From Streptomyces adustus (GTDB taxonomy: Bacteria; Actinomycetota; Actinomycetes; Streptomycetales; Streptomycetaceae): a DNA stretch of 64,000 nt. Under the pieces are notes generated by a model. The model was not told the origin of the DNA. It made no database searches and was given only the letters and a program-made list of their open reading frames with translations. Numbering within the stretch: the stretch's first letter is position 1; each line of letters starts with the position of its first letter. A program made the translations under genes and the position numbers. The stretch is from positions 1 to 64,000 of the forward strand of contig NZ_VJZD01000005.1 of assembly GCF_009377175.1 (NCBI RefSeq). Reading direction: 5' to 3'. Positions 9,510 through 64,000 of the stretch are shown piece by piece.

Positions 9510-9522
9510 CCCGCCCTTCGCC

Positions 9523-13588: not shown

Positions 13589-13617
13589 TGCTGTCCTTCC
13601 ACCGTCGATCGCGGTGT

Positions 13618-13662
13618 CCGTGCCTGCCGTGGCTCGCGGGCCCGAGCGGACGGCAGGCACGG
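13618..13662 (+). terminator. hairpin terminator of the STAND regulator gene
   Basis: A perfect 13-bp stem (13618-13630 with 13650-13662, arm CCGTGCCTGCCGT) with a 19-nt loop begins 29 bp after the stop codon. Confidence 0.75.
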
Positions 13663-14166
13663 CGCCCGGTCTCCTTTGCGGGAGGCGCTGTGCGGTTTGC
13701 TGCTGATGCATGTCCTCGCCAGGGAGTTCATCGAGGGGCAGGTGCGGAGGTGCGCTTTCCGTGCAGTGGCGGGGTTCGGATGGAGGCTGCCGAGTGGGAG
13801 GCGAGAGGCGCTTCGTCCCACTCGGCGGCCAGAAGGAACGCTAGGCCTTCTCGGAGGCCTCAGCGCGTCCAGCAGTGCGCGTCAACTGGTCCATGGGTGC
13901 ACTCGGCCCCTGAGAATCAGCCCGAAAGTCCAGTGCCGGACTCAATAGGTTTGAGCACCAGAAAATGCGGCCTGTGATCAGCCCGCACGAACGGCGCGCG
14001 GTCCAAATGTGAAGACTCGACTTGAGCAGCTCCGGGTCGAACTCGTGTGGATTCTGCACCATGAGGCAGAGCATCCACACCAACGACTCGGCTGATGCGG
14101 TCCGGTGATCATTGCGCCAGTACGATTCAAATGACCTACATGCCCGTCTTCGATTTTAGGAGTGCC
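13663..14166. other. intergenic stretch without a supported gene
   Basis: Short overlapping frames only. The right end contains the promoter and ribosome binding site (AGGAG, 14158-14162) of the small secreted-protein gene at 14167. Confidence 0.45.
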
Positions 14167-14541
14167 ATGCTCGTGCGACGATGGATCACGGCGACAGCGG
14201 CGACGGCGGTTGCTGTCGTGATGACGTTGGCCGGGGCCGGTAGCGCTTCAGCATCCGACTACTTCTATATCGGCGGGTCCGAAGGAGAAGTCGACAACAG
14301 CCCTGGAAACGGTGCTCCGGGGTGGATATGGGTATACGCCGGGTCTGATTACAATTCCCTCGACAACGCGTCCGCGACACTGGAATTCCAACTTGCCGAC
14401 GGCAGCAGCGGAACGTACACCGTACTCAAGGACAAAGCCGGGTCCACGAATCTCTGGTCCGCGGTCTGGGCCGCCAGATTGTGCATCACCACTGCATACA
14501 AGAACCATTACAACTGCACCGAGTGGCACGAGTACGCGTAG
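14167..14541 (+). CDS. small secreted protein of unknown function (124 aa)
   Basis: ATG 14167 is preceded by AGGAG at 4-nt spacing. It opens a clear signal peptide: MLVRRW, a hydrophobic alanine/valine/threonine core, and cleavage near SASAS-DY at about residue 29. The mature part (about 95 residues) is rich in aromatic and small polar residues (DYFYIGGSEG, APGWIWVYAG, STNLWSAVWAARLC) and has two cysteines (RLCITT and YNCTEW), which may pair. No family is recognised. It is less GC-rich than its neighbours, hinting at separate acquisition. It converges on the sedolisin gene, with a shared hairpin at 14612-14643. Confidence 0.78.
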   Translation: MLVRRWITATAATAVAVVMTLAGAGSASASDYFYIGGSEGEVDNSPGNGAPGWIWVYAGSDYNSLDNASATLEFQLADGSSGTYTVLKDKAGSTNLWSAVWAARLCITTAYKNHYNCTEWHEYA

Positions 14542-14611
14542 TCATCGATGTGTGTCGCCCCCTGATCGACTTCTCTTGCCCGACCTCTAATCGCTGAGAG
14601 GCCGAACAGCC

Positions 14612-14643
14612 GGCCGCGGCGAACGGATTCGTCCGCCGCGGCC
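14612..14643. terminator. bidirectional hairpin terminator
   Basis: A perfect 10-bp stem GGCCGCGGCG (14612-14621) with its complement at 14634-14643 and a 12-nt loop lies between the convergent small secreted gene and the sedolisin gene. Confidence 0.7.
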
Positions 14644-14771
14644 GACCGTCACCCGCTTTCAGGCTCACCGTCCGGCGCGACTCCGCCGCCGGCGGCAGGT
14701 GTCCGAGCGACCTCTCGGGCAGACGTCCCGCGGTGCGACAGCCTCTGTCGCGTCCGATACATGGCCGGTGG

Positions 14772-17700: not shown

Positions 17701-18836
17701 TTCTTGAAATAGGGGTAGGCGTTCGGATAGGTGCCCGCGTCGGGAGTGGCGGCGGCCGCGTACACACCGGTGATGATGGGGGCGGCGGCGCTGGTGCCGC
17801 CCATCTCACCCCAGCCGTAGCCACCGTATGTCTGGTAGAACGCCACACCGGTGTAGGGGTCGGCGACCGCGGCCACGTCCGACACCGAGCGATTGTCACA
17901 GCCGGTGTCCCTCTGGAATCCGGGCTTGGGCTCGTAGGCCGAACACCCCGACCCGGTGAGGCCCCACGCCGATTCGGTCCAGCCACGTGACGCGGTCGTG
18001 CTCGGCCTGAGTGACGTGCCGCCGACGGCGGTCACGTGCTGCGAGGCGGCCGGGTAGGAGATGCCGTAGCCGAAGTCCCCGGTGGAGGCGACCATGGCGA
18101 CGCCCGGACGGTCGTAGTGGGCGTCGAATTCGGTGACCTCCTCCGGAACCTCGCCGCTGCCCGCTCCGCCCCTGTAGTCGCTTCCGTAGGAGTTGGAGAC
18201 GTACTGGGCTCCCTGCGCGACCGCCTGGTCGACGGCGGCGAAGATGTCCTGGAAGTCGGTGCTGTCCGCCTCGACCAGCAGGAGGTGCGCGGCGGGCGCG
18301 GAGGCCGAGACCATGTCCAGGTCGAGCGATGCCTCAGCCGCCCAACTGCCGTTGGCTTCGGGGAAATCGGTGCCGCCCCGCTGATCGACTTTTCGGAAGC
18401 ACCCGTCGGCGGCCGTGCACGCGGGCAGTCCGTACTGCTCACGGTAGACGGCCAGATCGGCCTCCGCCGTCGGATCGTCGTAGGCCACCACGACGGCGAC
18501 CGTGCGACCGCCGCCGCCGTCCGTCGGCAGGTCGTACGCGCTCTGCAGATCGGACGGGCCGTAGCCGACGGGCGCGGTGTCCGAGACTCCGTGCTTGGCG
18601 ACGGTGTCGGTGCGCCGGATCGCGAAGCACCCCACCTTGCCGGGTTTCGGCTCCGAGCACACGGACTCGGCGGCCGGCTTGGTGTCCTGCACCGACGCGT
18701 CGGCGCTGGGTTTCGCCGACGCCGCCGCGGCGAGCGGCAGGCCGGCGCCCAGCACCGCCATCACGATCGAGGCGACGACCCCCAGGCGTGGGGGCGTGGG
18801 CCCGGGTCTCGCGGTGAACAGCCTGGTTATTCGCAA
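14772..18836 (-). CDS. giant secreted sedolisin (S53) protease with carboxypeptidase-regulatory and kelch repeats
   Basis: Start TTG 18836 is chosen because AGGAG sits seven bases upstream and a signal peptide follows (LRITRLFTARPGPTPPRLGV, hydrophobic core to about residue 45). The product is 1,354 residues and extracellular. The sedolisin catalytic set is complete: Glu168 and Asp172 in EASLDLD (the family's E-x3-D spacing) and Ser349 in GGTSAAAP, with the C-terminal calcium-loop region around DGPTGLGTPNG. Two carboxypeptidase-regulatory-like beta domains follow (about 425-580), then a jelly-roll-like domain (about 590-760), another regulatory-like domain, five or so kelch repeats (about 920-1190, for example KLYVVGGC and FIIVGGRTA) and a final regulatory-like domain. 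Acid-active serine-carboxyl proteases of this family degrade extracellular protein; the kelch propeller may bind a partner or substrate. It is monocistronic. Confidence 0.9.
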   Translation of the reverse strand: MRITRLFTARPGPTPPRLGVVASIVMAVLGAGLPLAAAASAKPSADASVQDTKPAAESVCSEPKPGKVGCFAIRRTDTVAKHGVSDTAPVGYGPSDLQSAYDLPTDGGGGRTVAVVVAYDDPTAEADLAVYREQYGLPACTAADGCFRKVDQRGGTDFPEANGSWAAEASLDLDMVSASAPAAHLLLVEADSTDFQDIFAAVDQAVAQGAQYVSNSYGSDYRGGAGSGEVPEEVTEFDAHYDRPGVAMVASTGDFGYGISYPAASQHVTAVGGTSLRPSTTASRGWTESAWGLTGSGCSAYEPKPGFQRDTGCDNRSVSDVAAVADPYTGVAFYQTYGGYGWGEMGGTSAAAPIITGVYAAAATPDAGTYPNAYPYFKKSALNDVTSGTNGTCTPSYLCTAGAGYDGPTGLGTPNGLAAFRNYPHGTVSGTVTDSTGAPLTAATVTADGYQDTVDSHGHYSLTLPPGTYDLRADAYGYRTKTSTVTVADGDSVTQDVSLDTAPSQTVTGKITDGSGHGYPLYASVTAEDVPGAPVFTNPYTGVYKLRLPEGHDYTLKVVAQYPGYQTGTKDISLGSSTQKADVALPVDRDVDTFAGYDVGTVGRTEAFDATDSPPDGWSVVNAPGTEGGWGFSDPTHQGNRTGGSGGFALANSISYPGKRQDSSLFSPVYDFSDYTRPRISFDMDYPAYATQSATVDITTDGGVTWTNLRTWTKVSQSGHIDIPIAAYSGAKTVQVRFRFVASNDNFWELDNLFIGDHPTTPVSGGLVAGVVTDANTGTKILNARVRNAGDHGQIGLTAATPDDPQLDDGFYWLFSDALGKQSFTATKSKFATGTRTARVVPDGVTESDYGLQSGKLTVKQTAVDKTLSLGGRATTKLTIKNTGKAPATFTVAEQASTPDTQTVDGTAWQSVANLPTTTADNAVAAYDGRLYSAFGFTPSTGSYTPDMYVYDPGTDAWSQLASAADERDAPAKGFIGGKFYAVGGWRNDSTLDPKLEIYDPASDTWSTGAPTPKPYAGSGSAVVDGKLYVVGGCGKKNCLNTDVYAYDPATDKWSAMAPYPIPIGWTACGEIADKLYCAGGETVNAGITKHAYVYDPVTDSWSPIADMTLAVWGPNYAAANGRFIIVGGRTATGVTNKSYAYDPQSGTWTALPNAASAIYRGGAAPGFYSVGGMRTPFANFTAAVGVLPGYDQGDRTDDVTWLGLHGQRATLRPGASTTVTVSLDASVSEVTQPGAYAAKLSVSTDTPYHVASIPVTMNVDPRKGWGAYTGTVLGDDGEGGTAPLTGATVQIVGKKSSHTVTTADDGTFSLWLDASGGPFTVTTSMEGYEPETTRVKLMEQDSALGDFTLKKVA

Positions 18837-34590: not shown

Positions 34591-35385
34591 TCAGAGCGTC
34601 TTGATCTGTCCGCCGTCGATGACGCTCTCCGTTCCCGTGATGTTGGCGGCGAGAGGGGAGGCGAGGAACAGGGTGAGGTCGGCGACCTCGTGCGCCTCGG
34701 TGATCCGTCCGGTGGTGATCCCCATGCTCTGCGGCACGACCACGTCGAGCGCTTCCTGGGCGGTGATGCCGGCGCTCGCGGCGGTGGCGTCGGCGAAGCC
34801 GCCCGGGGCGGTCCAGAAGGGGGTGCGGACCGGGCCGGGGGCGATCGCGTTGACGCGCACGCCCTGCGGTGCGAACTCCTCGGACAGGGACTTGTTGAGG
34901 TTGGTCAGGGCGGCCTTGGCCGCCGAGTAGTCGACCACCATGGGGAAGGGCAGCCGGGCGTTGATCGAGCTGATGTTCACGATGGCCCCGCCGCCCGCCG
35001 CGATCAGATGGGGGAGGGCCGCGCGGCTGGTGCGTACGGCGCTGAAGAACGTGAGATCGAAGATCCGCAGCCAGTCGGCGTCGCTGACGTCGAGGAACGA
35101 CTCCCGGGGCTCGGCCGCGCCGACGTTGTTGACGAGGACGTCGATGCGGCCGTAGCGCTCCACGGCCTGCTGGACCAGCCGCTCGGCCCCTTCCACGGTG
35201 GACAGGTCGACCGGTACGAAGGTGACATCGTGCTCGGCTGCCAGGGCGTCCAGTTCGGGCGTGGAGGTACGGCTGCCGGCCACGACCTTGACGCCCTCCC
35301 CGGCCAGTTTCTCGACCACGGCCAGGCCGATGCCCTTGCTGGCTCCGGTGACGACGGCGACCTTGTCCGTGAGGTGCAGTTCCAT
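34591..35385 (-). CDS. short-chain dehydrogenase/reductase, copy 1 of a paralogous pair
   Basis: A 264-residue classical SDR with cofactor motif VTGASKGIGLAVVEKL, VLVNNVGAAEPRE, active-site NISSINARLPFPMVV with YSAAK, and C-terminus VIDGGQIKTL. It aligns without gaps to the product of 47186-47980; I count about 39 differences in 264 residues (about 85% identity). The 28 bp before the start are also largely conserved between the two genes, including the ribosome binding site AAAGGG. A TetR gene lies 92 bp upstream in the same direction and is the likely regulator. The substrate is unknown. Confidence 0.9.
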   Translation of the reverse strand: MELHLTDKVAVVTGASKGIGLAVVEKLAGEGVKVVAGSRTSTPELDALAAEHDVTFVPVDLSTVEGAERLVQQAVERYGRIDVLVNNVGAAEPRESFLDVSDADWLRIFDLTFFSAVRTSRAALPHLIAAGGGAIVNISSINARLPFPMVVDYSAAKAALTNLNKSLSEEFAPQGVRVNAIAPGPVRTPFWTAPGGFADATAASAGITAQEALDVVVPQSMGITTGRITEAHEVADLTLFLASPLAANITGTESVIDGGQIKTL

Positions 35386-47185: not shown

Positions 47186-47980
47186 ATGGAACTGCACCTC
47201 AAGGGCAAGGTCGCCGTCGTCACCGGAGCCAGCAAGGGCATCGGCCTGGCCGTCGTCGAGGGCCTGGTCCGTGAAGGCGCGAAGGTCGTGGCGGGCAGCC
47301 GCACCTCCACTCCCGAACTGGACGCCCTGGCCGCCGCGCACGACGTGAGCGTGGTGTCCGTCGACCTGTCCACCGCGGAGGGCGCCGAGGCCCTGGTGCG
47401 TGCCGCTGTGGAGCGGCACGGCCGGATCGACATCCTGGTCAACAACGTCGGCGCGGCCGAGCCGCGCGAGTCGTTCCTCAAGGTGACCGACGAGGACTGG
47501 CAGAAGGTCTTCGGCGTGACCTTCTTCAGTGCCGTCCGCGCCAGCCGTGCGGCCCTGCCGCACCTGCTCGCCGCCGAAGGAGCGTCGATCGTCAACATCA
47601 GCTCCATCAACGCCCGGCTGCCCTTCCCGATGGTCGTGGACTACTCGGCGGCCAAGGCGGCGCTGACCAACCTGAACAAGGCGCTGTCCGAGGAGTTCGC
47701 CCCGCAGGGCGTGCGGGTCAACGCCGTCTCCCCGGGCCCGGTCCGCACCCCCTTCTGGACCGCGCCGGGCGGCTTCGCCGACGCCACTGCCGCGGCCGCC
47801 GGCACCACCGCCCAGGAAGCGCTCGACGTGGTCGTGCCGCAGAGCATGGGCATCGCTTCCGGCCGGATCACCGAGGCGCACGAGGTCGCCGACCTCACCC
47901 TCTTCCTGGCCTCCCCGCTGGCCGGCAACATCACCGGAGCCGAGATCGTCATCGACGGCGGACAGATCAAGACCCTCTGA
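47186..47980 (+). CDS. short-chain dehydrogenase/reductase, copy 2 of a paralogous pair
   Basis: A 264-residue SDR, same length and without gaps relative to the product of 34591-35385. Motifs are VTGASKGIGLAVVEGL, ILVNNVGAAEPRE, NISSINARLPFPMVV with YSAAK, and VIDGGQIKTL at the end. Differences cluster in the N-terminal half and around residues 100-140, while the active site and the substrate loop (PVRTPFWTAPGGFADATA) are conserved, so both copies probably use related substrates. Unlike copy 1 it has no adjacent TetR gene, but its leader carries a palindrome similar to the operator-like sequence before that TetR gene. Confidence 0.9.
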   Translation: MELHLKGKVAVVTGASKGIGLAVVEGLVREGAKVVAGSRTSTPELDALAAAHDVSVVSVDLSTAEGAEALVRAAVERHGRIDILVNNVGAAEPRESFLKVTDEDWQKVFGVTFFSAVRASRAALPHLLAAEGASIVNISSINARLPFPMVVDYSAAKAALTNLNKALSEEFAPQGVRVNAVSPGPVRTPFWTAPGGFADATAAAAGTTAQEALDVVVPQSMGIASGRITEAHEVADLTLFLASPLAGNITGAEIVIDGGQIKTL

Positions 47981-50342: not shown

Positions 50343-50570
50343 AGCCAGTCGATTCCATTGGCCGTCGGACGCCGGGCACGTCTCCGGCGCTCTCGGTGCG
50401 CGAGGTGCGCGGCGGAGTTCACGTGGGCACCCGGGTATGCCGCGGGCGTGGTGCTCACTTCAATTTCAGGACCTGCCCGCGGGTGGATTCCGTGATCTCC
50501 GAGACGGAAGAATGCGCCGTCCGACGATTCTTCTGGCCCCCGACCGGGGCCATGTGCCCCGGAGACCGTG

Positions 50571-51263
50571 ATGACGACCCGATTGAGCAGCCCGCCGGAA
50601 ACCGCCGAGACACCGCCGGTACCCCACTGGACCGTCCAGGTCGCCGGTGCGCTCACCGACGAGGCGAGCGGCGACGAGGGACCGGTGCACCCCGCCGCCG
50701 GGACGTCGTTCGCCGCCCTCCATCTCTGGCATGCCGGGACGGTGGCGGACCTGATCGGCGAGGCGGTCGCCCGGCACGGCGGGGATCCAGCTCCGCACGA
50801 GGCGCTGCGGGCGGTGCACGCACGCGCGGCGGCCGGCGAGGTGTTCGGCGAGAACGCGTGGTCGGCGGTGCTGGAACCGGCGTTGCGGGAGGTGTACCGG
50901 CTGGCCTACCCCGGCGAGCAGGTCCGCGCCAGGGCAGCCGCGGCAGCCTCCTCCTTCGCGCTCTCGCGCGGATGGGCCGAGGAGGACGCAGAGGACTACG
51001 GGAACTCCTACGCGCGGATGCACACAGAGGTGAGCGAGCGAGTGCACGCCGGGGCGAACGCCGTCGCGAACGCCGCCGCGTATGCCCTGGCGTTCGCCAC
51101 CCGGGACGCGTGGGAGTACGCGCATGCCTGGCCGTTCGCTCTGGTGCAGGCGTGGATCGCCGCTTACGCGGGACCGGCCGACTTGGACGGGCCGGTCGCG
51201 CAAGAGGCCCGGGCGCGTCTGCGGGGCGGTCTCGCCGAGGCGGTGAGGTGCGCCATCGCGTGA
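50571..51263 (+). CDS. conserved hypothetical protein rich in Ala (about 230 aa)
   Basis: ATG 50571 has GGAG six bases upstream; GTG 50568 is one codon earlier. The product is soluble and strongly helical, with aromatic/alanine periodicity in its second half (VHAGANAVANAAAYALAFAT, DAWEYAHAWPFALVQAW). I do not recognise a catalytic motif. I faintly recall similar alanine-rich proteins among Streptomyces biosynthetic loci, but cannot name a family. It converges on the dioxygenase gene with a shared hairpin at 51284-51317. Confidence 0.65.
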   Translation: MTTRLSSPPETAETPPVPHWTVQVAGALTDEASGDEGPVHPAAGTSFAALHLWHAGTVADLIGEAVARHGGDPAPHEALRAVHARAAAGEVFGENAWSAVLEPALREVYRLAYPGEQVRARAAAAASSFALSRGWAEEDAEDYGNSYARMHTEVSERVHAGANAVANAAAYALAFATRDAWEYAHAWPFALVQAWIAAYAGPADLDGPVAQEARARLRGGLAEAVRCAIA

Positions 51264-52234: not shown

Positions 52235-52732
52235 TTATCGGGACTCTTGCAGAAAGCCCCGGCGTTCACGCCAGGGATGAATGCATCTCAAGACTGCTCT
52301 GACGTGCACGTTAGAGCGGACGTTTTGCTGCTCGATGTACTGGCGCACGATCGCCAACGGTGCTCCCCCGCACGAGGCGGAGAAATACGAGGGCGACCAC
52401 AGGTGCCCGTGCATGATGGCGCGGTTGATCCGGCCGGTGAACTCCTGCCGTATCCGGCGGGCGGAGACGCCCTTGAGGCTGTTGACCAGCTTGGAGACGG
52501 CGACCTTGGGCGGGTAGTACACGAGGAGGTGGACGTGATCGCGTTCCCCGTTGAACTCCTTCAGCTCCGCCTCGAAGTCCTCGCAGACCTTGCGCATGAT
52601 CTCTTCGCAGCGTGTCAGCATCTCGTCGTTGAACACCCCGCGCCGGTACTTCGTCACGAAGACCAAGTACCAAGTGCACATGCATCGCCGCAACAACGTG
52701 CCTGCCACGTCTGTAATCGTTCTGCCCACCAA
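52235..52732 (-). CDS. tnpA: IS200-type Y1 transposase TnpA
   Basis: Up to 165 residues; the start is uncertain (TTG 52732 or GTG 52729, or a little downstream). The Y1 transposase domain is clear: CTWYLVFVTKYRRGVF, the HUH motif in ERDHVHLLVYYPP, VSKLVNSLKGVSARRIRQE, and the catalytic Tyr in IVRQYIEQQN. It cuts and joins single-stranded DNA at the hairpin ends of the element. It runs past the usual C-terminus by about 25 residues (HVRAVLRCIHPWRERRG), reading through the left-end hairpin, which suggests that the original stop codon was lost or that the tail is a variant. Confidence 0.87.
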   Translation of the reverse strand: MVGRTITDVAGTLLRRCMCTWYLVFVTKYRRGVFNDEMLTRCEEIMRKVCEDFEAELKEFNGERDHVHLLVYYPPKVAVSKLVNSLKGVSARRIRQEFTGRINRAIMHGHLWSPSYFSASCGGAPLAIVRQYIEQQNVRSNVHVRAVLRCIHPWRERRGFLQESR

Positions 52733-52760
52733 TGAGATTCATCGTCGTAGGGTCTTGGGT

Positions 52761-54005
52761 GTGCAGCTTCGCTACAACTACCGGGCCTACCCGGATGCCA
52801 CCCAGCGCCGTGCGCTGGCCCAGGCGTTCGGGTGCGCGCGGGTGGTGTGGAACGACTGCCTGCGTGATCGCAAGGAAGCGCACGCGGCGGGGCTGCCGTA
52901 TGTGAAGTCGGCCGAGCTGTCCCGGCTGCGCATCACCTTGGCCAAGCGCACCGCCGAACGCGCCTGGCTCGCCGACGTGTCGGCGGTCGTCCTGCAGCAG
53001 TCTCTGCGGGACCTGGATGCCGCCTACAAGAACCTCTTCGACAGCCTCAAGGGCAAGCGGCAGGGCCGCAAGGCCGGCCCTCCCCGCTACAAGTCGAAGA
53101 AGGACACCCGGCAGTCGATCCGCCTGAACACCAACGCCTTCTCCCTCCAGGACGACGGCACGGTGTACGTGGCCAAGGTCGGCAACCTCAAGGTCAAATG
53201 GTCCCGCCAGCTTCCGGCCGCACCCACGTCCCTGACCGTCACCAAGGACAGCTGCGGCCGGTACTTCCTCAGCTTCGTCGTGGACACCGAACCGGACATC
53301 CTCCCCGGCGTGGAGAGCGACGCCGGTATCGACCTCGGCCTGTCCGCCTTCGCGATCCTGTCCGACGGCAGCAGAATCGACAGCCCCCGCTTCCTGCGCC
53401 GGGCCGAGAAGAAACTCAAGCGCCTTCAGCGCGAGCTGTCCCGCAAGACCAAGGGATCGAAGAACCGGGCCAGGGCCCGTATCAAGGTCGCACGTCAGCA
53501 CGCCAAGGTGGCCGACCGGCGTCGGGACTTCCACCACAAGGCATCCACACAGATCATTCGCGACAAGCAAGCGGTGTACGTGGAAGACCTCACGGTGTCC
53601 GCTCTCGCGCGTACCCGGCTCGCCAAGTCCGTGCACGATGCGGGATGGTCCGCGTTCGTCGGCATGCTGCAGTACAAGGCGGCCCGGCACGGCCGCACCT
53701 TCGCCAAGGTGGACCGCGCCTTCCCGTCCTCCCAGGTCTGCTCGGCCTGCGGATTCAGGGACGGCCCCAAGCCCCTGCACGTCCGAAAATGGACGTGCAG
53801 CGCCTGCGGCACCGTGCACGACCGCGACCACAACGCAGCACGCAACGTCCTCTTCGAAGGACGCCGCATCGTCGCCACCGGACGGGTGGAGACGCCAAAC
53901 GCCTGTGGAGCGCCGGTAAGACGGGCACACGTGCCCGCACAGCGCGTTGAAGCAGGAAGCCCCCGGAAGGGTCAGACGACCCAGGCCGGAATCCCTGGAC
54001 TTTAG
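52761..54005 (+). CDS. tnpB: IS605 OrfB / TnpB RNA-guided nuclease
   Basis: GTG 52761 gives a 414-residue TnpB, the ancestor-type relative of Cas12. RuvC-like catalytic residues are visible in DAGIDLGLSAFAILSDG, VYVEDLTVSAL and HDRDHNAARNVLF. The zinc-finger pairs CSACGFRDG and CSACGTVHD are both present. All key residues are intact, so it could be an active nuclease guided by an RNA from the element's right end. It is divergent from tnpA. It converges on the SGNH gene, 13 bp away. The long C-terminal tail (GAPVRRAHVPAQRVEAG and on) overlaps the region expected to encode the guide RNA scaffold. Confidence 0.9.
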   Translation: MQLRYNYRAYPDATQRRALAQAFGCARVVWNDCLRDRKEAHAAGLPYVKSAELSRLRITLAKRTAERAWLADVSAVVLQQSLRDLDAAYKNLFDSLKGKRQGRKAGPPRYKSKKDTRQSIRLNTNAFSLQDDGTVYVAKVGNLKVKWSRQLPAAPTSLTVTKDSCGRYFLSFVVDTEPDILPGVESDAGIDLGLSAFAILSDGSRIDSPRFLRRAEKKLKRLQRELSRKTKGSKNRARARIKVARQHAKVADRRRDFHHKASTQIIRDKQAVYVEDLTVSALARTRLAKSVHDAGWSAFVGMLQYKAARHGRTFAKVDRAFPSSQVCSACGFRDGPKPLHVRKWTCSACGTVHDRDHNAARNVLFEGRRIVATGRVETPNACGAPVRRAHVPAQRVEAGSPRKGQTTQAGIPGL

Positions 54006-54018: not shown

Positions 54019-54732
54019 TCAAAGGCCTCGGTCGAGCAGTTCGGCGAGGACGATGCGGCCGAAGGCGAGGTTGCCGTGGACCTCGTCGTCGGCCTCGCAC
54101 AGGTCGGGGCGTTGCAGTCCGTCCGGGCCGGTGGTCCGGTGGCGCAGGTCCACGACGTCGACACCGAGTTCCGTGACGGCCAGCCGGATGCGCTCCTGCG
54201 CCGCCAGGAAAACGGCGGCGTCGGACTGGCCCGGGACCCGCTGCGGAGGCATCACCGCAAGGACCCGCAGGCCCAGGTCCACGGCGTATTCGTAGAACGC
54301 GAGCGCGTCCCGTACGGCGGCGCGCACGACGGTGTCGAACAGGGTGCCGGCGAGGAGAGCGGGAGGGACGGCGCCGCCGCGGTCGCGGTAGATGTCCCAG
54401 TTCTCCCGTAGCGCGACGAAGTGCGCGCAGAACCCGAACGTCGCGACCAGCGGTATGCCCAGCTCGGCGAGGGCGCCCACGCCGAGTTCCTTGAGGAAGC
54501 GGCGGTAGTGTTCCTCGGCTTCGCCGGAGTGGAAGACCACGTCGCTGCCGCTGCCGCTGCCGCTGGTGCCGTGGCGGGTGGCGAAGAAGCTGTCGGTGAA
54601 CTCCCGTCCGGCACCGATGGGGCCGCCCTGGAACGGGATGCCGGCCTGCCGGGCGGCCTGTCCGATCGGTCCCGCGTGGGAGTCGCCGAGCAGCAGGAAC
54701 CTAGCGGGGGCTGTAGTAGTCAAGGACGGCAT
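54019..54732 (-). CDS. SGNH-fold hydrolase/esterase-like protein
   Basis: ATG 54732 (MPSLTTTAPARFLLLG) lies within the end of the GSCFA gene, so the two are translationally coupled with a 32-nt overlap. The 237-residue product has the block-I motif LLLGDSHAG with the nucleophile serine and the C-terminal D-x2-H pair in EADDEVHGNLAFG. The middle part is less conserved. There is no signal peptide, so it acts in the cytoplasm, likely as an esterase or acyltransferase on a biosynthetic intermediate. Its 3' end is 13 bp from the IS605 tnpB stop codon and seems undamaged. Confidence 0.75.
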   Translation of the reverse strand: MPSLTTTAPARFLLLGDSHAGPIGQAARQAGIPFQGGPIGAGREFTDSFFATRHGTSGSGSGSDVVFHSGEAEEHYRRFLKELGVGALAELGIPLVATFGFCAHFVALRENWDIYRDRGGAVPPALLAGTLFDTVVRAAVRDALAFYEYAVDLGLRVLAVMPPQRVPGQSDAAVFLAAQERIRLAVTELGVDVVDLRHRTTGPDGLQRPDLCEADDEVHGNLAFGRIVLAELLDRGL

Positions 54733-55741
54733 CCTCACAGGCGGCATCTGCCGAACGGGCGGGGGCGTTGTGACCGGGCCGCACCTGCGGTGCCCGGTGG
54801 TGGAGTCCGGCCACGAAGTGCCGCATCACGAAGTCGACTCCCTCGGGGGTGACGGTGCGGTGGTTGGGGCCGAAGAACCGGCTGCCGAACACGGGGCCGG
54901 TGATGAGCTCGTAGGAGGGGAAGTAGTCGATGTCCGGATCCTCGAGTGCGAGTTGCCCGGCGACCGCGCGCAGCACGGACTTGGTGTAGCCGTTGGCGGC
55001 CAGCGCGTGAGCGCCGGTGGCGGTCGCGGTCAGGGGCTGCGGTGAGACCGTCAGCAGGATCCGCAGGCCGGGATTGACCAGCCGTGCCATCGCGATCGCC
55101 TCGGTCATGTCCCGGTGGGCCTCGGCGAACGTGAAGTTGTGCAGGACGTACCGGGAGGCGTCGAAGGTGCCGCGCACGGTGCCGGGGCAGGTGGGGTGCA
55201 CCGTGCCGTCGACGGTGTCGAGCCAGGCTTCGGTGAGCCCCATGGTGAAGACCAGGCAGCTCGCCTTCATGACGGCGGTGCGGATGGCGTCGAGCGTGAC
55301 GTCGCGCGCCAGCAGCATCTCGGCCGGGGAGACGAACCCGTCGGGTTCGATCGCCGGCCGGTAGGGGTCGACGCAGCGCTCCCCGTCGGGCCACGCCTCC
55401 TGGGGCGGCTGCGTGTGATCCAGGGCCCACGACAGCCACTGACGCAGGACGGCGGGCGTGTAGATGTTGCCCGTGCGGAACGAGAAGGCGCCGTAGTTGC
55501 GGTACCGGCGCTCCTCGCGGGTCAGGCCCGGCGGGGCGGGTTCGGCGTCGAGCCAGTTCATGCCCGAGTCCAGCAGCGCCCGGCCGATCTGCGCGGCGAA
55601 GCAGGATCCCGCGGTGACGACCGGGTCGTCCTGGCCGAGGGCGAACTTGGGCCTCCAGACGTCGTCGATGTCCAGCGGGTCCGGTTCGGCGACGGCCGGC
55701 CGCCAGAACGACCGGACCGGCAGGTACTGGTAGGGGTTCAC
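54701..55741 (-). CDS. GSCFA-family protein (GDSL-like fold)
   Basis: GTG 55741 overlaps the megasynthase stop codon (GTGA). The 346-residue protein has the family's N-terminal hallmark TAGSCFAAQIGRAL, followed by YRNYGAFSFRTGNIYTPAVL, VMKASCLVFTMGLTEAWLD and VSPQPLTATATGAHALAAN. GSCFA proteins are distantly related to GDSL/SGNH esterases and have no well-defined reaction. Here the gene is coupled on one side to an NRPS-PKS and on the other to an SGNH gene, which argues for a tailoring, transfer or editing step in this pathway (inference). Confidence 0.87.
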   Translation of the reverse strand: MNPYQYLPVRSFWRPAVAEPDPLDIDDVWRPKFALGQDDPVVTAGSCFAAQIGRALLDSGMNWLDAEPAPPGLTREERRYRNYGAFSFRTGNIYTPAVLRQWLSWALDHTQPPQEAWPDGERCVDPYRPAIEPDGFVSPAEMLLARDVTLDAIRTAVMKASCLVFTMGLTEAWLDTVDGTVHPTCPGTVRGTFDASRYVLHNFTFAEAHRDMTEAIAMARLVNPGLRILLTVSPQPLTATATGAHALAANGYTKSVLRAVAGQLALEDPDIDYFPSYELITGPVFGSRFFGPNHRTVTPEGVDFVMRHFVAGLHHRAPQVRPGHNAPARSADAACEDAVLDYYSPR

Positions 55742-58700
55742 AGAGCGCGCTCCGATGTGTGCTCGCGGTCGGGCCGGGGACCGGCTGCGACGTCCGCGAG
55801 GGTCGAGGTGATGGTCTCGGCCACGGTGTGGACGTGCGGCGGTGCGACGACGCCGTAGTGGTCGGTGGGAAGCGTTCGCCGCAGGGCGGAGGCGGGCAGG
55901 CACGCGTCCCACTGGCGGGCCGTCTCCCGCGGGTCGCCGGGTGCGGGCACGCCCGCCGTGGGCTGTTCGGCCAGCCACAGGAGGGTGGGGGTGAGGGTGA
56001 GCGGCCGTACCCGGTGCTCGCCCAGAGCGTGCAGGTTGGCTCGGCAGCAGCGGGCCAGCCGCTCGGCGTACGCCTGCGCGTGCTCCGCCGACGCCGCCGA
56101 GGCTCCGGCACCGAGTTCGGCGGCGAACACCGTCTCGAGATGGGTCTCGTCGTAGGCGGCGACCAGCGCGTCCGCCCGCGGCGGCGGGGGATCGAGCAGA
56201 CAGAGGGCGTGCACCGGGTCTCCCGCGGCCTCGGCGAGGGCGGCCATCTCCATGGCGACGCGGGCGCCGAAGGACCAGCCCGCCAGGTGCAGCCGGTGCT
56301 CCCGTGCGCCGAAGCGCTCGCGCAGGGCAGCGTCGTAGAGGCGGGCGCGTTCGGCCAGCGACCAGGAGGGCAAGCCGGGGGAGCGCAGGGCAGGGTCGGC
56401 GATCAGGCACACGGTCGGCTCGGGTCCCAGCGCCGCCGCCAGCGACCGGTAGGCCTGGATGTCGCCGCCGACCGGGTGCACCAGGCACAGCACTGCCGAG
56501 CCGGTGCCCTCCTGCCAGACGTCGACGGTGACCGGCGACGTGGTGAGGGCCATCCGGTGGGCGGGCGCGGGGGCGAGGGCCTCCTGGAGGTGCTTGAGGA
56601 TCTCCACGAGACTGACCCGGTGGCTGAAGGTGGCCAGGTCGAACTCGACACCGTAGTCGTCCTCGATCTGCGCGATCAGACTGAGCAGGGTCAGCGAGTC
56701 CGCGCCGAGGTCGTACAGCGAGTCGTCCGGGGCGAAGTCGTCCACACCGAGCAGGTCCTGGATCACGCGGGTCATGACAGCGGCGCGCTCGGCGGACTCG
56801 GCGGCGTCCGCGGTCGCCGCCTCGTCGGCCGCGTCCCGCGCCGGTCCGGCCGGCACCCCGGCCGCAGGCTCCGTCCGCGCCTGCGGGGCAGGCGCGTAGA
56901 AGGCCCGGGAGGACTCGATGTCCGTGGTGGAGACGAGGAGCTGGGGCAGCTGCAGGGCCAGCGCCCGGCCGAAGACCGCCATGCCCTCCTCGACCGTCAG
57001 CCCCACCTCCAGGTGGGCCTGGTGGCGGCTGTCCGCGGCCGGCGCTCGCGTCGCCATTCCCGTCTCGCGCCAGATGTCCCAGTCGACGCTGATCCGGACC
57101 GTCCTGTCGGTCTCGGCGGCGCGGTGGTGGGCGAAACCGTCGAGAAGGCTCGCGCCGGCGGCGTAGTCCGTGTGGCCGGTGCCTCCGAGCAGAGCGGCCA
57201 TGGAGGAGCAGTACACCGCGAGATCCGGGCGGAAGGTCTCGATCAGGCGTTCCACGACGAGGGCGCCGTTCTCCCTGGCGGCCGCGCCGGCGCGCATCGC
57301 TCCGGCGTCGCGGCGCAGCAGCAGGCTGCCGAAGCCCTGGCCGGCGGCGTGGATCACGCTGTCCAGCCGTGCGGTGTGCGCGGCGACGGCCGCCGCCGCC
57401 TCGTGCGGGGGCAGCGCCGCGAGATCGGCTTCGACGAGTGTGATGCGGCCGGCCCAGCGGGCGAGCTCCTCGGGCAGCCGAGGCTTCCTCGACAGCAGCA
57501 GGATCCGTCCGTCCGTGTGCTCCAGCAGCCACGCGGCGACGGCCCGGCCGATGCCGCCCGTCCCGCCCAGGACCAGGTGGACCGTGTCGTCGCCGGACGG
57601 AACGACCGGCTCGGCGGCGGGCATCGTCGGCACGGGTGCGATGCCCGGTCGCCACCAGTAGCCCTGCCGCAGCGCGAGCTGCCGGGGCAGCGCCGGGCCG
57701 GTCGGGTCCTGGGGCGCACGGCGCATCTGGGCGATGACCGAGGCGACGTGGGGTGCCCACCGGGCGAGGCCGCCGTCGGGGAGGTCCAGCCAGTGTCCGG
57801 CCAGGACGTTCTCCTGGTGGGCGACCTCGACCGGCCCCGCGAGGAGGGCCAGTTCGGGTCGCTGCACCGTGCCGTTCACCGGACGCGCGCCGTACGACAG
57901 CCACCACACACGGGGGGATCCGGTGTGGCCGGACACCGCCTGCGCCAGGGCGGCGGTGGTGTCCAGACAGGCGTGGCGTGCTTCCGCCAGCGCGCCCATA
58001 CCGACAGGCCCTGCCACCGCCAGAGGCAACGCGTGTACCCACTCGGTGTCGGCGAGACAGTCGCCGACCTCCTCGGACAGCGCGTCGAACAGCAGGCGCA
58101 GGGACGCCGGGTCGGCCGGATCGGCCTCGTAGACGTCCGGCCCGCGGCGCGCGAAGGCGTCGGCAGGGCGCACCCGCACCACACGGGCCCCCACCGTCCC
58201 GAAGGCGTCGAACGCCTCTCGTGGCACCGTCCACGGAGCCACGACGAACACGACGCGGGCGCGCTGGGACCGTGGGACGGTGCCGTCCTGGGTCGCGCGG
58301 CGCAGTCGGACCCAATACGGCTGGTGCAGCCACTCGGCCTGCGGCAGCCTTCGGGGGCCGGTCGGTACGGCCTTCGGCGTACGGTCGAGCTCGTACGGCG
58401 CGAGCGCGAAGGACGGGGGTGGGAAGTCCCAGGGAGCCGGGGCCGGGCCCGGCTGCCAGTCGATGTTCCGGCCAGCGTTCCACTGCCGGGCGAGGTCGTG
58501 TGCCGCACGGTCCGCCGCGGGAACCGGGGGCGTGTCCGGGTCCAGTACGGCGTGCGGGATCTCGCCGGCGGCCACTGAGCTCAGCCAGCGCACCGCGGAG
58601 TCGACGCCGGACACGGGTGCCGCGACCCGCAGGGGGCGTGCCGGGCGCCCGGCCTGAAGGTGGCGCAGCGCCGGCTCGTAGTGTTCGGGACGCAGCCGCA

Positions 58701-61700
58701 GGTGCTCCGCGATCCGGGCGGCATCGGCCGTGAGGGCCCGGGCACTGGACGCGGAGAGCACCAGGCACTCCGGGACCGTCGCCGACGGATCCGTGCCGGC
58801 CCGGGTCTCCGGCTCCAGGACGACGTGTGCGTTCGTACCGCCGATGCCGAAGCTGCTGACCGCGGCGACCCGTGCGCGTCCCGCTGGCCACGCCGTGGCC
58901 CGGGTGGGGACGTGGAAGGGAGTGGGGTCGGGGCCGATCTCCGGGTTGAAGGCCCGGAAGTTGAGGTTGGGCGGGATGGTGCCGTGGTGCAGTGCCAGGG
59001 CGGCGCGCACGAGGCCGACCACGCCGGCGGCCGCTCCCAGGTGCCCGAGCTGGCTCTTGACCGAGCTGAGCGCGCAGCGGCCGGACTCGCCGACGTCGAA
59101 CGCCTGGCGCAGCGCGCTCACTTCGATGGGATCGCCCAGCCGGGTGCCGGTTCCGTGTGCCTCGACATAGCCGAGGTCGGCGCCGGTGCGTCCAGCCCGG
59201 GCAAGGGCGGTGCGGATCACCTCGCGCTGCCCGGCCAGGGACGGCGCGGTGTAACTCATCTTGGCCGCGCCATCGTTGTTGATCGCGGAGCCGGTGATGA
59301 CCGCGTAGACGGTGTCGCCGTCGCGGCGGGCGTGCCGCAGCGGTTTGAGGACCACGACGCCGATGCCGCTGGCGCCGACCGTGCCGGTCGCGTCGTCGCT
59401 GAAGGGCCGGCAGTCGCCGTCGGCGGAGAAGATGTGCTGCGGGCGGTAGCGGTAACCGCCGGTCAGTCCGGGGTCGATGAGCACGCCGCCGGCGAGCATC
59501 ACGTCGGCGTCGCCCTGACGGAGCAGACCGGCCGCGAGGTGCACGGCGACCAGGGAGCTGGAGCACGCCGTCTGGGCGCTGAAGGCCGGGCCGGTCAGGC
59601 CGAGGTGGTAGGCCGCCTTGGTGGCCAGGAAGTCCTTCTCGTGGTGCAGGGCGAGCTGGAAGCCGTCGGGCAGCCGGGCGGGGTCCGCCTCGCGCAGCAG
59701 GGACTGGAAGTACGTGTTCTCCCCGGCGCCGGCGACCAGCCCCACGCGGGTGGCGGAGGTGTCCCGGACACCCGCGTGGGCCAGGGCCTGGACACAGGCC
59801 ATCAGCAGGTGGCGCTGCTGGGGGTCCATCAGGCGTGCGTCGTGCGGGCTGATGCCGAAGTGGCCCGGGTCGAAGTCGAACATGCCGTCGAGCGTGCTGT
59901 GTGCGCCGACGACACCCTCGGGGGCGTCGAAACGGCGGATGCCGGTGCCGCCGGAGACCACCAGGTCCCAGAACGCGGCCAGGTCCGGGGCGCCCGGCAC
60001 GCGTACGGCCATGCCGACGATCGCGATCGGCTCGGCGGGGTCCGTGCCGACGCCCTCCCCCGTGGCCTCCACGGCAGCCGTCCGGGAGCCGGGGACGTCC
60101 TCGGCGGCGAGGTGGCGGGCCAGGGCGCGGACGGTGACGTGCTCGAACAGCTCGGCGACGCCGAAGCGCAGGCCGAGTTCGGTGGTGCAGCGCAGATGGA
60201 AGCGCATGAGGGTGAGGCTGGAGGCACCCGCCTCGAAGAAGGTCTGGTCGGGCTCGATGCTCGCCCCGGTGACCGCCTCGAAGGCGGCGGTGAGCCGTGC
60301 CTCCTGGGCCGACAGCCTGGCGCGGGCGGCGACCGTGCGGCGAATGTCCTCGCCCGGCGCCCGCAGCGCCGCCTTCCGGTCCAGCTTGCCGCTGGGGGTA
60401 CGCGGCAGGGCCGTGAGCCGGCGGAAGCGGTCCACGCGGACGTAGGAGGGCAGCAGCGCGGCGAGGTGGGCGGTGAGATCTTCGGCGGTCGGGGTCTCGT
60501 CACGGAACTCGAGACAGGCCGTCAGCCTGTCGCCGTCACGGGCCACGACGGCGTTGACCACCGCCGGATGACGCAGCAGGGCCGCTTCGACGGAGCCGAG
60601 TTCCAGCCGGTGGCCGCTCAGCTTGATCTGCTGGTCGTCACGGCCCGCGTAGTGCAGCAGGCCGTCGTGGTCGAACCAGGCCCGGTCGCCGCTGCGGTAG
60701 AACAGGCCCTCACCGGGCACGTCGAGGAAGCGCTCGTCGTCGAGGACGGGGTCGTCGAGGTAGCAGCGGGTGGTCATGGTGCCGCCGAGCAGCAGTTCGC
60801 CGGTGCAGCCGGGCGGGAGAGCGTCGCCGAGGGCGTCCACCACCCGCAGGTCGGCGCCGGCCACCGGCCGTCCGATGGCGGGCCGCTCGGGCCACTGCCG
60901 CGGGTCCCCCTCCAGACACAGGGCGCTGACCACGTGCGTCTCGGTGGGACCGTAGTGGTTGAAGAGGCGGGCGCCCGGCAGTCCCGCGAACCAGCGGCGG
61001 ATGGTGTCGGTGCACACCAGCTGCTCGCCTGCGGTGACCACTTCACGCAGCCGGGACGGGTATCTGCCCAGGCGCACCCCGTACTCGGCGAGCAGTTGCA
61101 GCGCCACGTACGGCATGAAGATCCGCTCGGCTCCCGCGGACTCCAGCCGGTCCAGGAGGGCGGGGACGTCCTGGCGCCAGCCGGGTTGTACGAGCTGGAG
61201 CCTGCCGCCGGTGCACAGCGTCCCGAAGATCTCCTGGAAGGAGACGTCGAAGGACAGCATCGAAAACTGCTGGGTCGCCGCCGAAGCGGCCAGACCTCCG
61301 GGCCCGGACTGCCACTGGATCAGGTCGCACAGGGTGCGGTCGGATATCTGGACACCCTTGGGGGTGCCGGTGGACCCGGAGGTGAACAGCGTGTACAGCG
61401 GCCGGTCGCCGTCGTGCGTGCGTCCGTCGTACGGGGCCGTCGCGCTCTCGGCCGGCCGTGGTGCGAGGGCGACGGGATGGCGGACGATGCCGTCCGGGAG
61501 CAGAACGTCGAGTGCCGATGCGGGCTCGGAGGCCGTCAGTACGCACAGGGGGTCGACCCGCTCCAGGACGTGGCGCAGCACCTCGGCCGGGTAGGAGGGG
61601 TCCAGGGGGACAGCGGTGACGTTCAGCCGGGCCAGCGCCAGCAGCGCCACCACGTGCTCGGCCGACGGGTCCAGGTACAAGGCCGCCCGGCAGGGGGTGC

Positions 61701-64000
61701 CGTCGACCGGGATCGGGTAGCGGTCGGCCAGGTCCGCGGCGAGGGCCGCGGCGTGGGCGTCGAGCTCCGCGTAGCTCAGGGAGTGTCCGTCCGCGGTCAC
61801 GACGGCGCAGGCGTGCGGGGTGCGCACGACCTGGTGTGCGAAACCCTCGGCGACGGTGGTGAAGCCCGGTTCGGGGGCGGGCCCGCGTCCGAACCGCGGC
61901 AGGGAGCGCCGGTAGGGGGCGACCAGTTCCCGCGGGGTGGAGCGCCCGCCCGCGGCGAGTGCGTCCACGCCCCGCCGCAGCAGGTCGGCCATCGCCTCGA
62001 CGGCCTCGCCGGTGAAGCGGTCCTCGGCGTACTCCCACAGCAGGTCGAGCCCGTCGGCATGTTCGAGGACGGAGACCGTCATCGGGCACTTGGCCTCCGG
62101 GGCGGCCCACCACAGAGGACGCTGGGCACAGCCCGGCAGACGCAGTGCGCCGAAGTCGGTGTTCTCCAGGACGAACAGCACGTCGAACGGGGTGCCGTCG
62201 CCGACGGCCTCCCAGCCGGTCAGCACGTCGGCGAGGGCCACGTCCTGGCGCTGTAGCACCTGCCCGGTGTCGGCTCCGGTACGGGTGAGCTGGGAGCGCA
62301 GGCCCTCACCCGGTGACACCGTCACCGGCAGCAGCACGGTGTTGGCCAGCATCCCCACGCTGTCCTGGAAGTCGCGGACGGGGCGGTTGGCGACCGGGGC
62401 GGCGATGCGGGGGCGGAGCAGGCCGGTCGCGCCGTACAGGCTCCAGGAGAATGCGCCCAGCAGCACCTGGAAGCGGGTCAAGCCGAGCTCGGCGCAGAGC
62501 CGGTCGACCTCGGCCCGGCGCACCACGTCGAGGGTGGTGTGGAGGAGCTGAGCCCGCGGTGCCGGACCGCCGGCCCGGTCCAGAAGCGGTTCCTGGGGTT
62601 CCTCCAGGCCTCGGTAGTAGGCCAGAAGCTCGTTACGCCGCTCCTGGTAGGCGGCGGTGGCGAACCAGTCGGACTGCCAGGCGGCGAAGTCCAGCGGGGT
62701 GGGTGCCGCTGTCCTGCTCTCGCCGGCGTCGGTACCGGTACCGGTTTCGGCGTAGGCGGTGGACAGATCCTGGAGCAGGACGCTCAGCGACCAGCCGTCG
62801 ACGGCAATGTGGTGCAGGTGCAGCAGCAGGGTGCCGCCGCCGTCGTCGGGCATCCAGCAGGCCCGCAGCATGCGCGGCACGGCGAGGTCGAAGGGTTCGG
62901 CGAAGAAGGTGTCGGCGAAGGCGTGCGCCTCCTGCTCGTCCCACGTGCGGCCCTCGCCCGGATCGTGCCAGGGGTCGTACGGCTCGTCGACGGTCTGCCG
63001 CAGCCCGTGCGGTCCGAGGGCGAAGCCCGTGCGCAGTGCTTGGTGGCGTGCCACCACGGTCCGCAGCGCCCGCCGCAGCGCGGTGGTGTCGACGGGTCCG
63101 TCCACACGGAAGGCCTGGTTGACGGAGTAGGCGCGGGACGAGGGAGTACGACGCTGCAGCAGCCACAGGCGTTCCTGCTCGGCGGTGGCGGCCGCCGACC
63201 GGGCGTCGGTCCTCTGCGGCGCCGGGTAGGTGCTCTTCTCGCCCGTCCCGGCCGCGGCGACGGCCCGCGCGATGCCGGCCATGTCTGCGTGGAGGACGTC
63301 CGTCTGCGCCACGTCGCAGCCCCATCGCCGGCGGATCGCGAAGCAGAGCCGCAAGGCCTTCAACGAGTCGCCACCACTGGCGATCCACCGGTCGCCGAGC
63401 CCGAGGCCCGTCGTCTGCAGGATGTCCTCGGCCAGTTCCAGGACCTCCCGCTCGGTACCCGTCGCGGTGCGGGCGTCCGTCGCGGCGGGCCGCCAGGGCC
63501 GGTCGGCCAGCCGCAGCAGGGCGGCCTGGTCGACCTTGCCATTGGCGTTGAGCGGCAGTTCCTTGAGGCGATGAATTTGGTGCGGGCGCATGTAGGCGGG
63601 CAGGTGGGCCGTCAGATGGGCGTCGAATTCCTCGTAGGACAGATCCTGTTGCAGGACCACGAACGCCAGCAGTTCGTTCGGGCCCTCTTCGCCCGCGCGC
63701 CGGGTGCACACATGGGCCCGCCGGATCGCCGGATGGGACAGGACCCGGCGTTCCACCTCGCCGGGCTCGATCCGGAAGCCGCGGACCTTGACCTGGCGGT
63801 CGGTCCGGCCGACGTACTCGATCCGGCCCTCGTCGTCGCACCGCACCAGGTCCCCGGTGCGGTAGTACCGCTCGGCGCCGCCGTCGAGCCATGCCAGTCG
63901 TACGAAGCGCCGCTCGGTCTCCTCGGGAAGGTTGCGGTAGCCGGCCGCGAGTCCCTCGCCGCTGAGCAGGAGCTCGGCCACCTCGCCGGGCGCGGCGGTC
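55738..64000 (-). CDS. hybrid NRPS-PKS megasynthase, partial: A-PCP-C-A-PCP-KS-KR-ACP-TE
   Basis: The gene enters from beyond 64000; about 2,750 codons are seen. Domains by position: A1 C-terminus (63520-64000, YYRTGDLV, NANGKVDQ), PCP1 (Ser in GGDSLKALRL), C (61900-63190, HHIAVDG), A2 (60390-61830, TSGSTGTPKG, YGPTETH, PSGKLDR), PCP2 (FFEAGASSLTLM), KS (58760-60030, Cys in TACSSS, EAHGTGT, SQLGHLGAAAG), KR (56890-57620, GGTGGIG), ACP (LGADSLTLL) and TE (55750-56550, GWSFGARVAM with TDHYG). There is no AT between KS and KR, so malonate must be loaded in trans. A2 pocket residues D-V-Q-(Y/V)-V-A-H-V-V-K resemble proline-activating domains. The TE ends the line by hydrolysis or cyclisation. The last module thus extends a prolyl-type residue by two carbons. 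Confidence 0.92.
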   Translation of the reverse strand, partial: TAAPGEVAELLLSGEGLAAGYRNLPEETERRFVRLAWLDGGAERYYRTGDLVRCDDEGRIEYVGRTDRQVKVRGFRIEPGEVERRVLSHPAIRRAHVCTRRAGEEGPNELLAFVVLQQDLSYEEFDAHLTAHLPAYMRPHQIHRLKELPLNANGKVDQAALLRLADRPWRPAATDARTATGTEREVLELAEDILQTTGLGLGDRWIASGGDSLKALRLCFAIRRRWGCDVAQTDVLHADMAGIARAVAAAGTGEKSTYPAPQRTDARSAAATAEQERLWLLQRRTPSSRAYSVNQAFRVDGPVDTTALRRALRTVVARHQALRTGFALGPHGLRQTVDEPYDPWHDPGEGRTWDEQEAHAFADTFFAEPFDLAVPRMLRACWMPDDGGGTLLLHLHHIAVDGWSLSVLLQDLSTAYAETGTGTDAGESRTAAPTPLDFAAWQSDWFATAAYQERRNELLAYYRGLEEPQEPLLDRAGGPAPRAQLLHTTLDVVRRAEVDRLCAELGLTRFQVLLGAFSWSLYGATGLLRPRIAAPVANRPVRDFQDSVGMLANTVLLPVTVSPGEGLRSQLTRTGADTGQVLQRQDVALADVLTGWEAVGDGTPFDVLFVLENTDFGALRLPGCAQRPLWWAAPEAKCPMTVSVLEHADGLDLLWEYAEDRFTGEAVEAMADLLRRGVDALAAGGRSTPRELVAPYRRSLPRFGRGPAPEPGFTTVAEGFAHQVVRTPHACAVVTADGHSLSYAELDAHAAALAADLADRYPIPVDGTPCRAALYLDPSAEHVVALLALARLNVTAVPLDPSYPAEVLRHVLERVDPLCVLTASEPASALDVLLPDGIVRHPVALAPRPAESATAPYDGRTHDGDRPLYTLFTSGSTGTPKGVQISDRTLCDLIQWQSGPGGLAASAATQQFSMLSFDVSFQEIFGTLCTGGRLQLVQPGWRQDVPALLDRLESAGAERIFMPYVALQLLAEYGVRLGRYPSRLREVVTAGEQLVCTDTIRRWFAGLPGARLFNHYGPTETHVVSALCLEGDPRQWPERPAIGRPVAGADLRVVDALGDALPPGCTGELLLGGTMTTRCYLDDPVLDDERFLDVPGEGLFYRSGDRAWFDHDGLLHYAGRDDQQIKLSGHRLELGSVEAALLRHPAVVNAVVARDGDRLTACLEFRDETPTAEDLTAHLAALLPSYVRVDRFRRLTALPRTPSGKLDRKAALRAPGEDIRRTVAARARLSAQEARLTAAFEAVTGASIEPDQTFFEAGASSLTLMRFHLRCTTELGLRFGVAELFEHVTVRALARHLAAEDVPGSRTAAVEATGEGVGTDPAEPIAIVGMAVRVPGAPDLAAFWDLVVSGGTGIRRFDAPEGVVGAHSTLDGMFDFDPGHFGISPHDARLMDPQQRHLLMACVQALAHAGVRDTSATRVGLVAGAGENTYFQSLLREADPARLPDGFQLALHHEKDFLATKAAYHLGLTGPAFSAQTACSSSLVAVHLAAGLLRQGDADVMLAGGVLIDPGLTGGYRYRPQHIFSADGDCRPFSDDATGTVGASGIGVVVLKPLRHARRDGDTVYAVITGSAINNDGAAKMSYTAPSLAGQREVIRTALARAGRTGADLGYVEAHGTGTRLGDPIEVSALRQAFDVGESGRCALSSVKSQLGHLGAAAGVVGLVRAALALHHGTIPPNLNFRAFNPEIGPDPTPFHVPTRATAWPAGRARVAAVSSFGIGGTNAHVVLEPETRAGTDPSATVPECLVLSASSARALTADAARIAEHLRLRPEHYEPALRHLQAGRPARPLRVAAPVSGVDSAVRWLSSVAAGEIPHAVLDPDTPPVPAADRAAHDLARQWNAGRNIDWQPGPAPAPWDFPPPSFALAPYELDRTPKAVPTGPRRLPQAEWLHQPYWVRLRRATQDGTVPRSQRARVVFVVAPWTVPREAFDAFGTVGARVVRVRPADAFARRGPDVYEADPADPASLRLLFDALSEEVGDCLADTEWVHALPLAVAGPVGMGALAEARHACLDTTAALAQAVSGHTGSPRVWWLSYGARPVNGTVQRPELALLAGPVEVAHQENVLAGHWLDLPDGGLARWAPHVASVIAQMRRAPQDPTGPALPRQLALRQGYWWRPGIAPVPTMPAAEPVVPSGDDTVHLVLGGTGGIGRAVAAWLLEHTDGRILLLSRKPRLPEELARWAGRITLVEADLAALPPHEAAAAVAAHTARLDSVIHAAGQGFGSLLLRRDAGAMRAGAAARENGALVVERLIETFRPDLAVYCSSMAALLGGTGHTDYAAGASLLDGFAHHRAAETDRTVRISVDWDIWRETGMATRAPAADSRHQAHLEVGLTVEEGMAVFGRALALQLPQLLVSTTDIESSRAFYAPAPQARTEPAAGVPAGPARDAADEAATADAAESAERAAVMTRVIQDLLGVDDFAPDDSLYDLGADSLTLLSLIAQIEDDYGVEFDLATFSHRVSLVEILKHLQEALAPAPAHRMALTTSPVTVDVWQEGTGSAVLCLVHPVGGDIQAYRSLAAALGPEPTVCLIADPALRSPGLPSWSLAERARLYDAALRERFGAREHRLHLAGWSFGARVAMEMAALAEAAGDPVHALCLLDPPPPRADALVAAYDETHLETVFAAELGAGASAASAEHAQAYAERLARCCRANLHALGEHRVRPLTLTPTLLWLAEQPTAGVPAPGDPRETARQWDACLPASALRRTLPTDHYGVVAPPHVHTVAETITSTLADVAAGPRPDREHTSERAL

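Follow-up and report, generated by a model that had tools for sequence, protein, structure and literature searches.

Synthases of the detoxin/rimosamide family are known antibiotic-antidote synthases, whose products are recognised by a detoxinine unit and by antagonism of blasticidin S. Here we describe a hybrid nonribosomal peptide synthetase-polyketide synthase (NRPS-PKS) gene of Streptomyces adustus that reaches the right edge of a 64,000-nucleotide stretch (GCF_009377175.1, contig NZ_VJZD01000005.1, positions 1 to 64,000; the whole stretch is called the window). Its PKS module carries a ketosynthase (KS), a ketoreductase (KR), an acyl carrier protein (ACP) and a thioesterase (TE) and no acyltransferase (AT). 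The core of detoxin/rimosamide-like (DRL) clusters is formed by a detG/rmoI hybrid gene and a tauD-like gene (PMC8302735). In the miramide cluster, mirG encodes a condensation-adenylation-thiolation-thioesterase (C-A-T-TE) protein, mirF and mirE encode A-T-C-A-T-KS and KR-T-TE, and mirD encodes a GSCFA protein; the rest are mirC (putative protein), mirB (taurine dioxygenase) and mirA (SpcZ). MirF/MirE have no acyltransferase domain, and a stand-alone one probably loads them in trans (PMC9503745). For PipC, the corresponding hybrid of the pseudotetraivprolide cluster in Pseudomonas entomophila, the product was formed in E. coli with no AT supplied, and the FabD proteins of both E. coli and P. 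entomophila transferred malonyl to the PipC ACP in vitro. In the same study, the AT domain was missing from all PipC homologues of known DRL clusters, and acetylation was assigned to PipDFG, of which PipG is the GSCFA protein (PMC12828459).

The window cluster shares its gene set and the absence of an AT with mirA-mirG of Streptomyces mirabilis Lu17588. However, the miramide hybrid consists of two proteins, MirF and MirE, whereas the window cluster has one gene and a tailoring region interrupted by a TnpB gene (PMC9503745). PipC likewise has an AT-less KS-KR-ACP-TE module behind NRPS modules, its cluster also encodes GSCFA and SGNH proteins and a dioxygenase, and FabD acts there as the trans-AT; but it belongs to another phylum and is accompanied by two upstream NRPSs and the N-acetyltransferase PipH, none of which was seen in the window cluster (PMC12828459). 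RmoI (rimosamide) and DetG (detoxin) of Streptomyces are single-gene hybrids accompanied, as in the window, by TauD, SpcZ and GSCFA homologues, a likeness drawn from Table 1 of PMC9503745. BrnF of the barnesin A cluster also has an AT-less PKS module behind an NRPS, with FabD proposed as the trans-AT and expression in E. coli supporting this (PMC13096860). It differs from the window module in having a dehydratase (DH) domain, a vinylogous amino acid product and another cluster context. Classical trans-AT PKSs are AT-less and loaded in trans like the window module, whereas the window system has no dedicated AT gene and its KS falls outside the core trans-AT clade.

We assign a probability of about 0.88 to the reading that the hybrid gene is the signature synthase (DetG/RmoI/PipC) of a DRL depsipeptide cluster and that its ACP is malonylated in trans by FabD. 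The hybrid was found together with a TauD-like dioxygenase (DetJ/RmoL/PipE; PF02668 and synteny), with a companion C-A-T-TE NRPS whose TE is predicted from domain content to form an ester, and with GSCFA, SGNH-like and SpcZ genes, which not every DRL member has. Under this assignment the oddity of an AT-less hybrid becomes ordinary: it is the normal design of the family, with FabD borrowed from fatty-acid synthesis. The cluster is a new DRL family member; the AT-less module and the FabD dependence of the family have already been published. What looked like an odd module is thus filed under a family with an experimental answer, in which FabD of primary metabolism feeds a secondary-metabolite synthase.

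Domain order and absence of an AT

The start of the hybrid gene (METRATASPTG) was located at contig base 65064, so that 64000 is only the window edge and not the gene end. The minus-strand translation from 55738 is a single unbroken frame, still open at 64000. Pfam revealed the order A-T-C-A-T-KS-KR-ACP-TE, which is the DetG/RmoI/PipC-type order A-T-C-A-T-KS-KR-T-TE without an AT, and KS-linker-KR-ACP-TE at 55738-60033 (-) is the sole PKS module. The KS Cys-His-His, the ACP Ser and the TE Ser are all present. The protein is 54-80% identical to the hybrids at eight Streptomyces/Streptantibioticus loci. Its parts were placed as follows.

55738..64000 in the window, start at contig base 65064 (-): hybrid NRPS-PKS gene, 3108 amino acids (aa)
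61933..63192 (-): condensation domain, Pfam PF00668
60370..61842 (-): second adenylation domain (A2), Pfam PF00501/PF13193
58813..60033 (-): KS, PF00109/PF02801; active-site Cys motif at 59571-59554, both His motifs intact
58252..58812 (-): post-KS linker, consisting of the KS C-terminal extension and a short post-AT-like motif, without AT
57580..58251 (-): KR structural half, from an alignment of ten relatives
56899..57579 (-): KR catalytic half; GGTGGIG, Ser and Tyr kept, Lys replaced by Arg and Asn by Ala
56599..56808 (-): ACP, Pfam PF00550, LGADSL at 56709-56692; the part needing malonyl from a trans-acting AT
55801..56568 (-): thioesterase, Pfam PF00975, GWSFG at 56280-56266

The original prediction described a terminal KS-KR-ACP-TE module without an AT, and this composition stood, while the KS end was moved from about 58760 to ~58813. 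The missing AT was confirmed in several ways. PF00698 (Acyl_transf_1) had no match in the KS-KR stretch even at E<=10; a profile built from the AT domains of PKS loci, on which complete cis-AT modules score about 210-380 bits, found nothing in the hybrid gene; and neither GHSxG nor GQSxG occurred in the six frames of 56899-60033. Profile search also found no AT at 57620-58750, where one would have overturned the claim. Only 411 aa lie between the KS end and the KR Rossmann motif, and they are filled by the KS C-terminal extension, the linker and the KR structural half. In Pfam, the linker matched KAsynt_C_assoc with 54 bits and the RhiE-like linker with 17.7 bits, the latter under its cutoff. 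An AlphaFold model of KS-linker-KR, built from four sequences only, was too poor to judge an AT docking fold (mean predicted local distance difference test score 36, predicted template modelling score 0.28). The module has no AT between KS and KR, where cis-AT modular PKSs carry it, and it is AT-less as the modules of classical trans-AT PKSs are. Loading of the extender in trans, as had been proposed, is upheld, since the module has no AT.

The same architecture proved not to be rare. An AT-less KS module behind an NRPS had been thought uncommon in Streptomyces outside trans-AT systems, but of 199 genomes sampled in the genus, 20 (~10%, the window's own counted) carried a DRL-type hybrid when searched with a KR query. 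No AT match appeared at these 20 loci in the stretch read, which mostly reaches back ~500 aa from the catalytic KR and so covers the KS-KR linker but not the whole KS. Nine relatives were read from the KS onward, namely L015, L017-L022 and the loci of genomes G003 and G011 (extended through the complete module by L035/L036), and 9/9 were without an AT.

Malonyl supply and position of the KS

The PF00698 scan gave ten AT matches genome-wide, nine of them within PKS frames of 1051-4919 aa. The tenth is the only stand-alone AT of the genome; it lies in a 335-aa frame (C166:41053-41883) followed by FabH, ACP and FabF, and is the housekeeping FabD of a fabD-fabH-acp-fabF operon. No match was obtained on the window's contig (C518, 96,904 bases). 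The earlier statement that no neighbouring gene encodes an AT thus extends to the entire contig, and the free AT gene looked for to the right of 64000 was absent from its remainder. In two other DRL genomes, no AT match was found near the hybrid. The stand-alone AT is FabD-sized in both: G011 has only this one (374-aa frame), and G003 has, besides its own (424-aa frame), a further match that is partial and lies in a frame of 296 aa. By homology and elimination, we infer that FabD loads the ACP in this S. adustus strain.

Two KS trees were built with 58 and 53 KSs, in which the trans-AT references were taken from relatives' clusters with free ATs and from PDB alignments. Ten DRL-type KSs, one of them from a Serratia plasmid, formed one clade (100/100) nested in a large group of hybrid-type (NRPS-PKS) KSs (100/100). 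This group mixes cis-AT modules with AT-less ones (PDB 4wky and 4oqj, and the KSs of G029:C41, a cluster that bears tandem free ATs). The core trans-AT clade, made up of 7zma and the KSs of three clusters whose contigs also carry free ATs, was placed elsewhere in the tree. The DRL clade stood next to cis-AT KSs in the 58-KS tree, and the 53-KS tree gave it no clear sister group. In approximately unbiased (AU) tests, a single clade of DRL and core trans-AT KSs was rejected (AU p 0.015) and a union of DRL with the hybrid-type AT-less KSs (4wky, 4oqj, L039) was not (AU p 0.425), p-values that come from two trees, one model, a thin trans-AT reference set and groups named after viewing the tree.

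The placement in the trans-AT clade that had been offered as a check was therefore not obtained. The alternative offered beside it, recent AT loss, is not supported either, because every examined detoxin-type relative is without an AT. A KS within the hybrid group and outside the core trans-AT clade indicates neither a classical trans-AT system nor recent AT loss. Judged from these sequence comparisons, the absence of the AT is old and common to the DRL family, and the trees suggest that the family turned AT-less on a line separate from the core trans-AT synthases.

Several points weigh against a DRL synthase that is loaded by FabD and reduces its product. The FabD of this strain reached only 190.6 bits on TIGR00128 (cut-off 260.9), with the related mdcH model slightly ahead at 197 bits, though its operon context is canonical. 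FabD loading was measured with the Pseudomonas and E. coli enzymes, not with that of this strain (PMC12828459). The altered KR active site makes the reduction step uncertain in the window's lineage. Furthermore, the genome is a draft in 562 contigs, so that an unassembled AT remains conceivable. This last point would fit loading by a dedicated trans-AT that the assembly lacks, or else by one of the nine AT domains within the PKS genes; true trans-AT clusters with free ATs do occur in relatives (tandem AT-AT at G029:C41, free AT at G021:C14). However, we consider both routes improbable: the assembly is rated 100% complete, the whole 96.9-kb contig is free of AT genes, G003 and G011 have none near the hybrid, and the homologue PipC is functional in E. 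coli with no AT added (PMC12828459).

Self-malonylation of the ACP from malonyl-CoA, with no AT involved, is still harder to credit, as FabD-catalysed transfer was still found after background correction. The replaced catalytic Lys and Asn of the KR in the window's subclade and the TnpB element within the tailoring region could also be taken as signs of a decayed module that no longer functions and lost its AT recently. We give this hardly any credence, because the 3108-aa frame is intact, the active-site residues of KS, ACP and TE are kept, and the AT is lacking in the whole family, the Serratia relative included. Moreover, the ratios of nonsynonymous to synonymous substitution (dN/dS) of the window against L017 and L018 were 0.14-0.16 for the KS and 0.28-0.37 for the KR.

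KR variant and proposed chemistry

The KR residues of the window read R/S/Y/A, whereas 17 of the 26 DRL KRs in the tree retain K/S/Y/N. R/S/Y/A was observed in a clade of seven (100/100) that includes the window; outside that clade stand L078 (R/S/Y/A) and L019 (K/S/Y/A). The variant loci listed are 56899-57579 (-), L017, L018, L072-L075, L078 and L019. Among three compared members of the clade, the KR dN/dS of 0.27-0.37 was within the range of ACP and TE, indicating that the domain is maintained by purifying selection. The miramide made by S. mirabilis Lu17588 is a reduced product (PMC9503745), and L018, the homologue from S. mirabilis strain NBC_01248 (not Lu17588), falls in the R/A clade. 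It is possible, though we think it unlikely, that the R/S/Y/A KR is kept by selection yet is non-reducing or otherwise used, so that the clusters would yield a beta-keto compound, or one released in another way, in place of the standard detoxinine ester. The subclade thereby makes product structure a concrete question that can be tested.

For this strain, we infer all steps of the chemistry as follows. Residues read by eye suggest an aliphatic, Val/Ile-like amino acid as the substrate of the first adenylation domain (A1) and proline as that of A2; the A2 pocket D-V-Q-F-V-A-H-V-V, proline-like by the A-domain code, serves as a lead only. The KS would elongate the dipeptide by a malonate unit; as the module itself is AT-less, the FabD of fatty-acid synthesis would charge the ACP with malonyl in trans. 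The KR would turn the ketone into a hydroxyl, at which the TE of the adjacent C-A-T-TE NRPS would form the ester. Modification of the proline ring by hydroxylation (predicted for TauD) and acetylation would fall to the TauD, GSCFA and SGNH-like proteins.

Neighbouring genes and relatives

The genes around the hybrid are given below.

65064-69059 of the contig (-), upstream of the hybrid: companion C-A-T-TE NRPS; Condensation, AMP-binding, PP-binding, Thioesterase
54701..55741 (-): GSCFA-domain protein (MirD/RmoJ/PipG type), PF08885, E 4e-44
54019..54747 (-): SGNH/GDSL-like protein (MirC/RmoK/PipF type), 242 aa; synteny, weak Lipase_GDSL_2
52596..54005 (+): TnpB gene, IS200/IS605-type; PF01385, PF07282, PF12323
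51338..52210 (-): TauD-family dioxygenase (MirB/RmoL/DetJ/PipE type), PF02668, E 2e-57
50568..51263 (+): SpcZ-like protein (MirA/RmoM/DetL type), by identity to the annotated SpcZ of L017 in the same place and orientation

The GSCFA match is the only one in the genome, and the GTG start of its gene overlaps the stop of the hybrid gene. L017, an annotated plasmid of Streptomyces sp. NBC_01455, has the same genes in the same order and orientation (NRPS, hybrid, GSCFA, SGNH-like, TauD, SpcZ) except for the TnpB gene, with identities of 86%, 80%, 86%, 86%, 92% and 68%, respectively. The TnpB gene separates tauD from the SGNH-like gene; in L017, ~27 bp lie between these two. The TnpB gene is outside the biosynthetic pathway, and its insertion may uncouple tauD from the operon.

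The relatives varied in their tailoring genes. L018, a plasmid of S. mirabilis NBC_01248, matched neither the GSCFA nor the SGNH-like gene; the same held for L036 and L015, but both loci end early downstream. Some detoxin-type clusters may therefore make unacetylated products. L022 (Serratia proteamaculans plasmid, 4870-17993) carries a detoxin-like NRPS and an AT-less hybrid of ~35% identity; the plasmid is conjugative and has no annotated TauD or GSCFA gene near the hybrid. Several of the closest relatives (L017-L021) are on large linear Streptomyces plasmids, the plasmid collection being the only one searched in this way, and such a location would fit horizontal spread. Elsewhere in the window, two short-chain dehydrogenase genes of 264 aa at 34591-35385 (-) and 47186-47980 (+), ~12 kb apart, are possibly duplicates.
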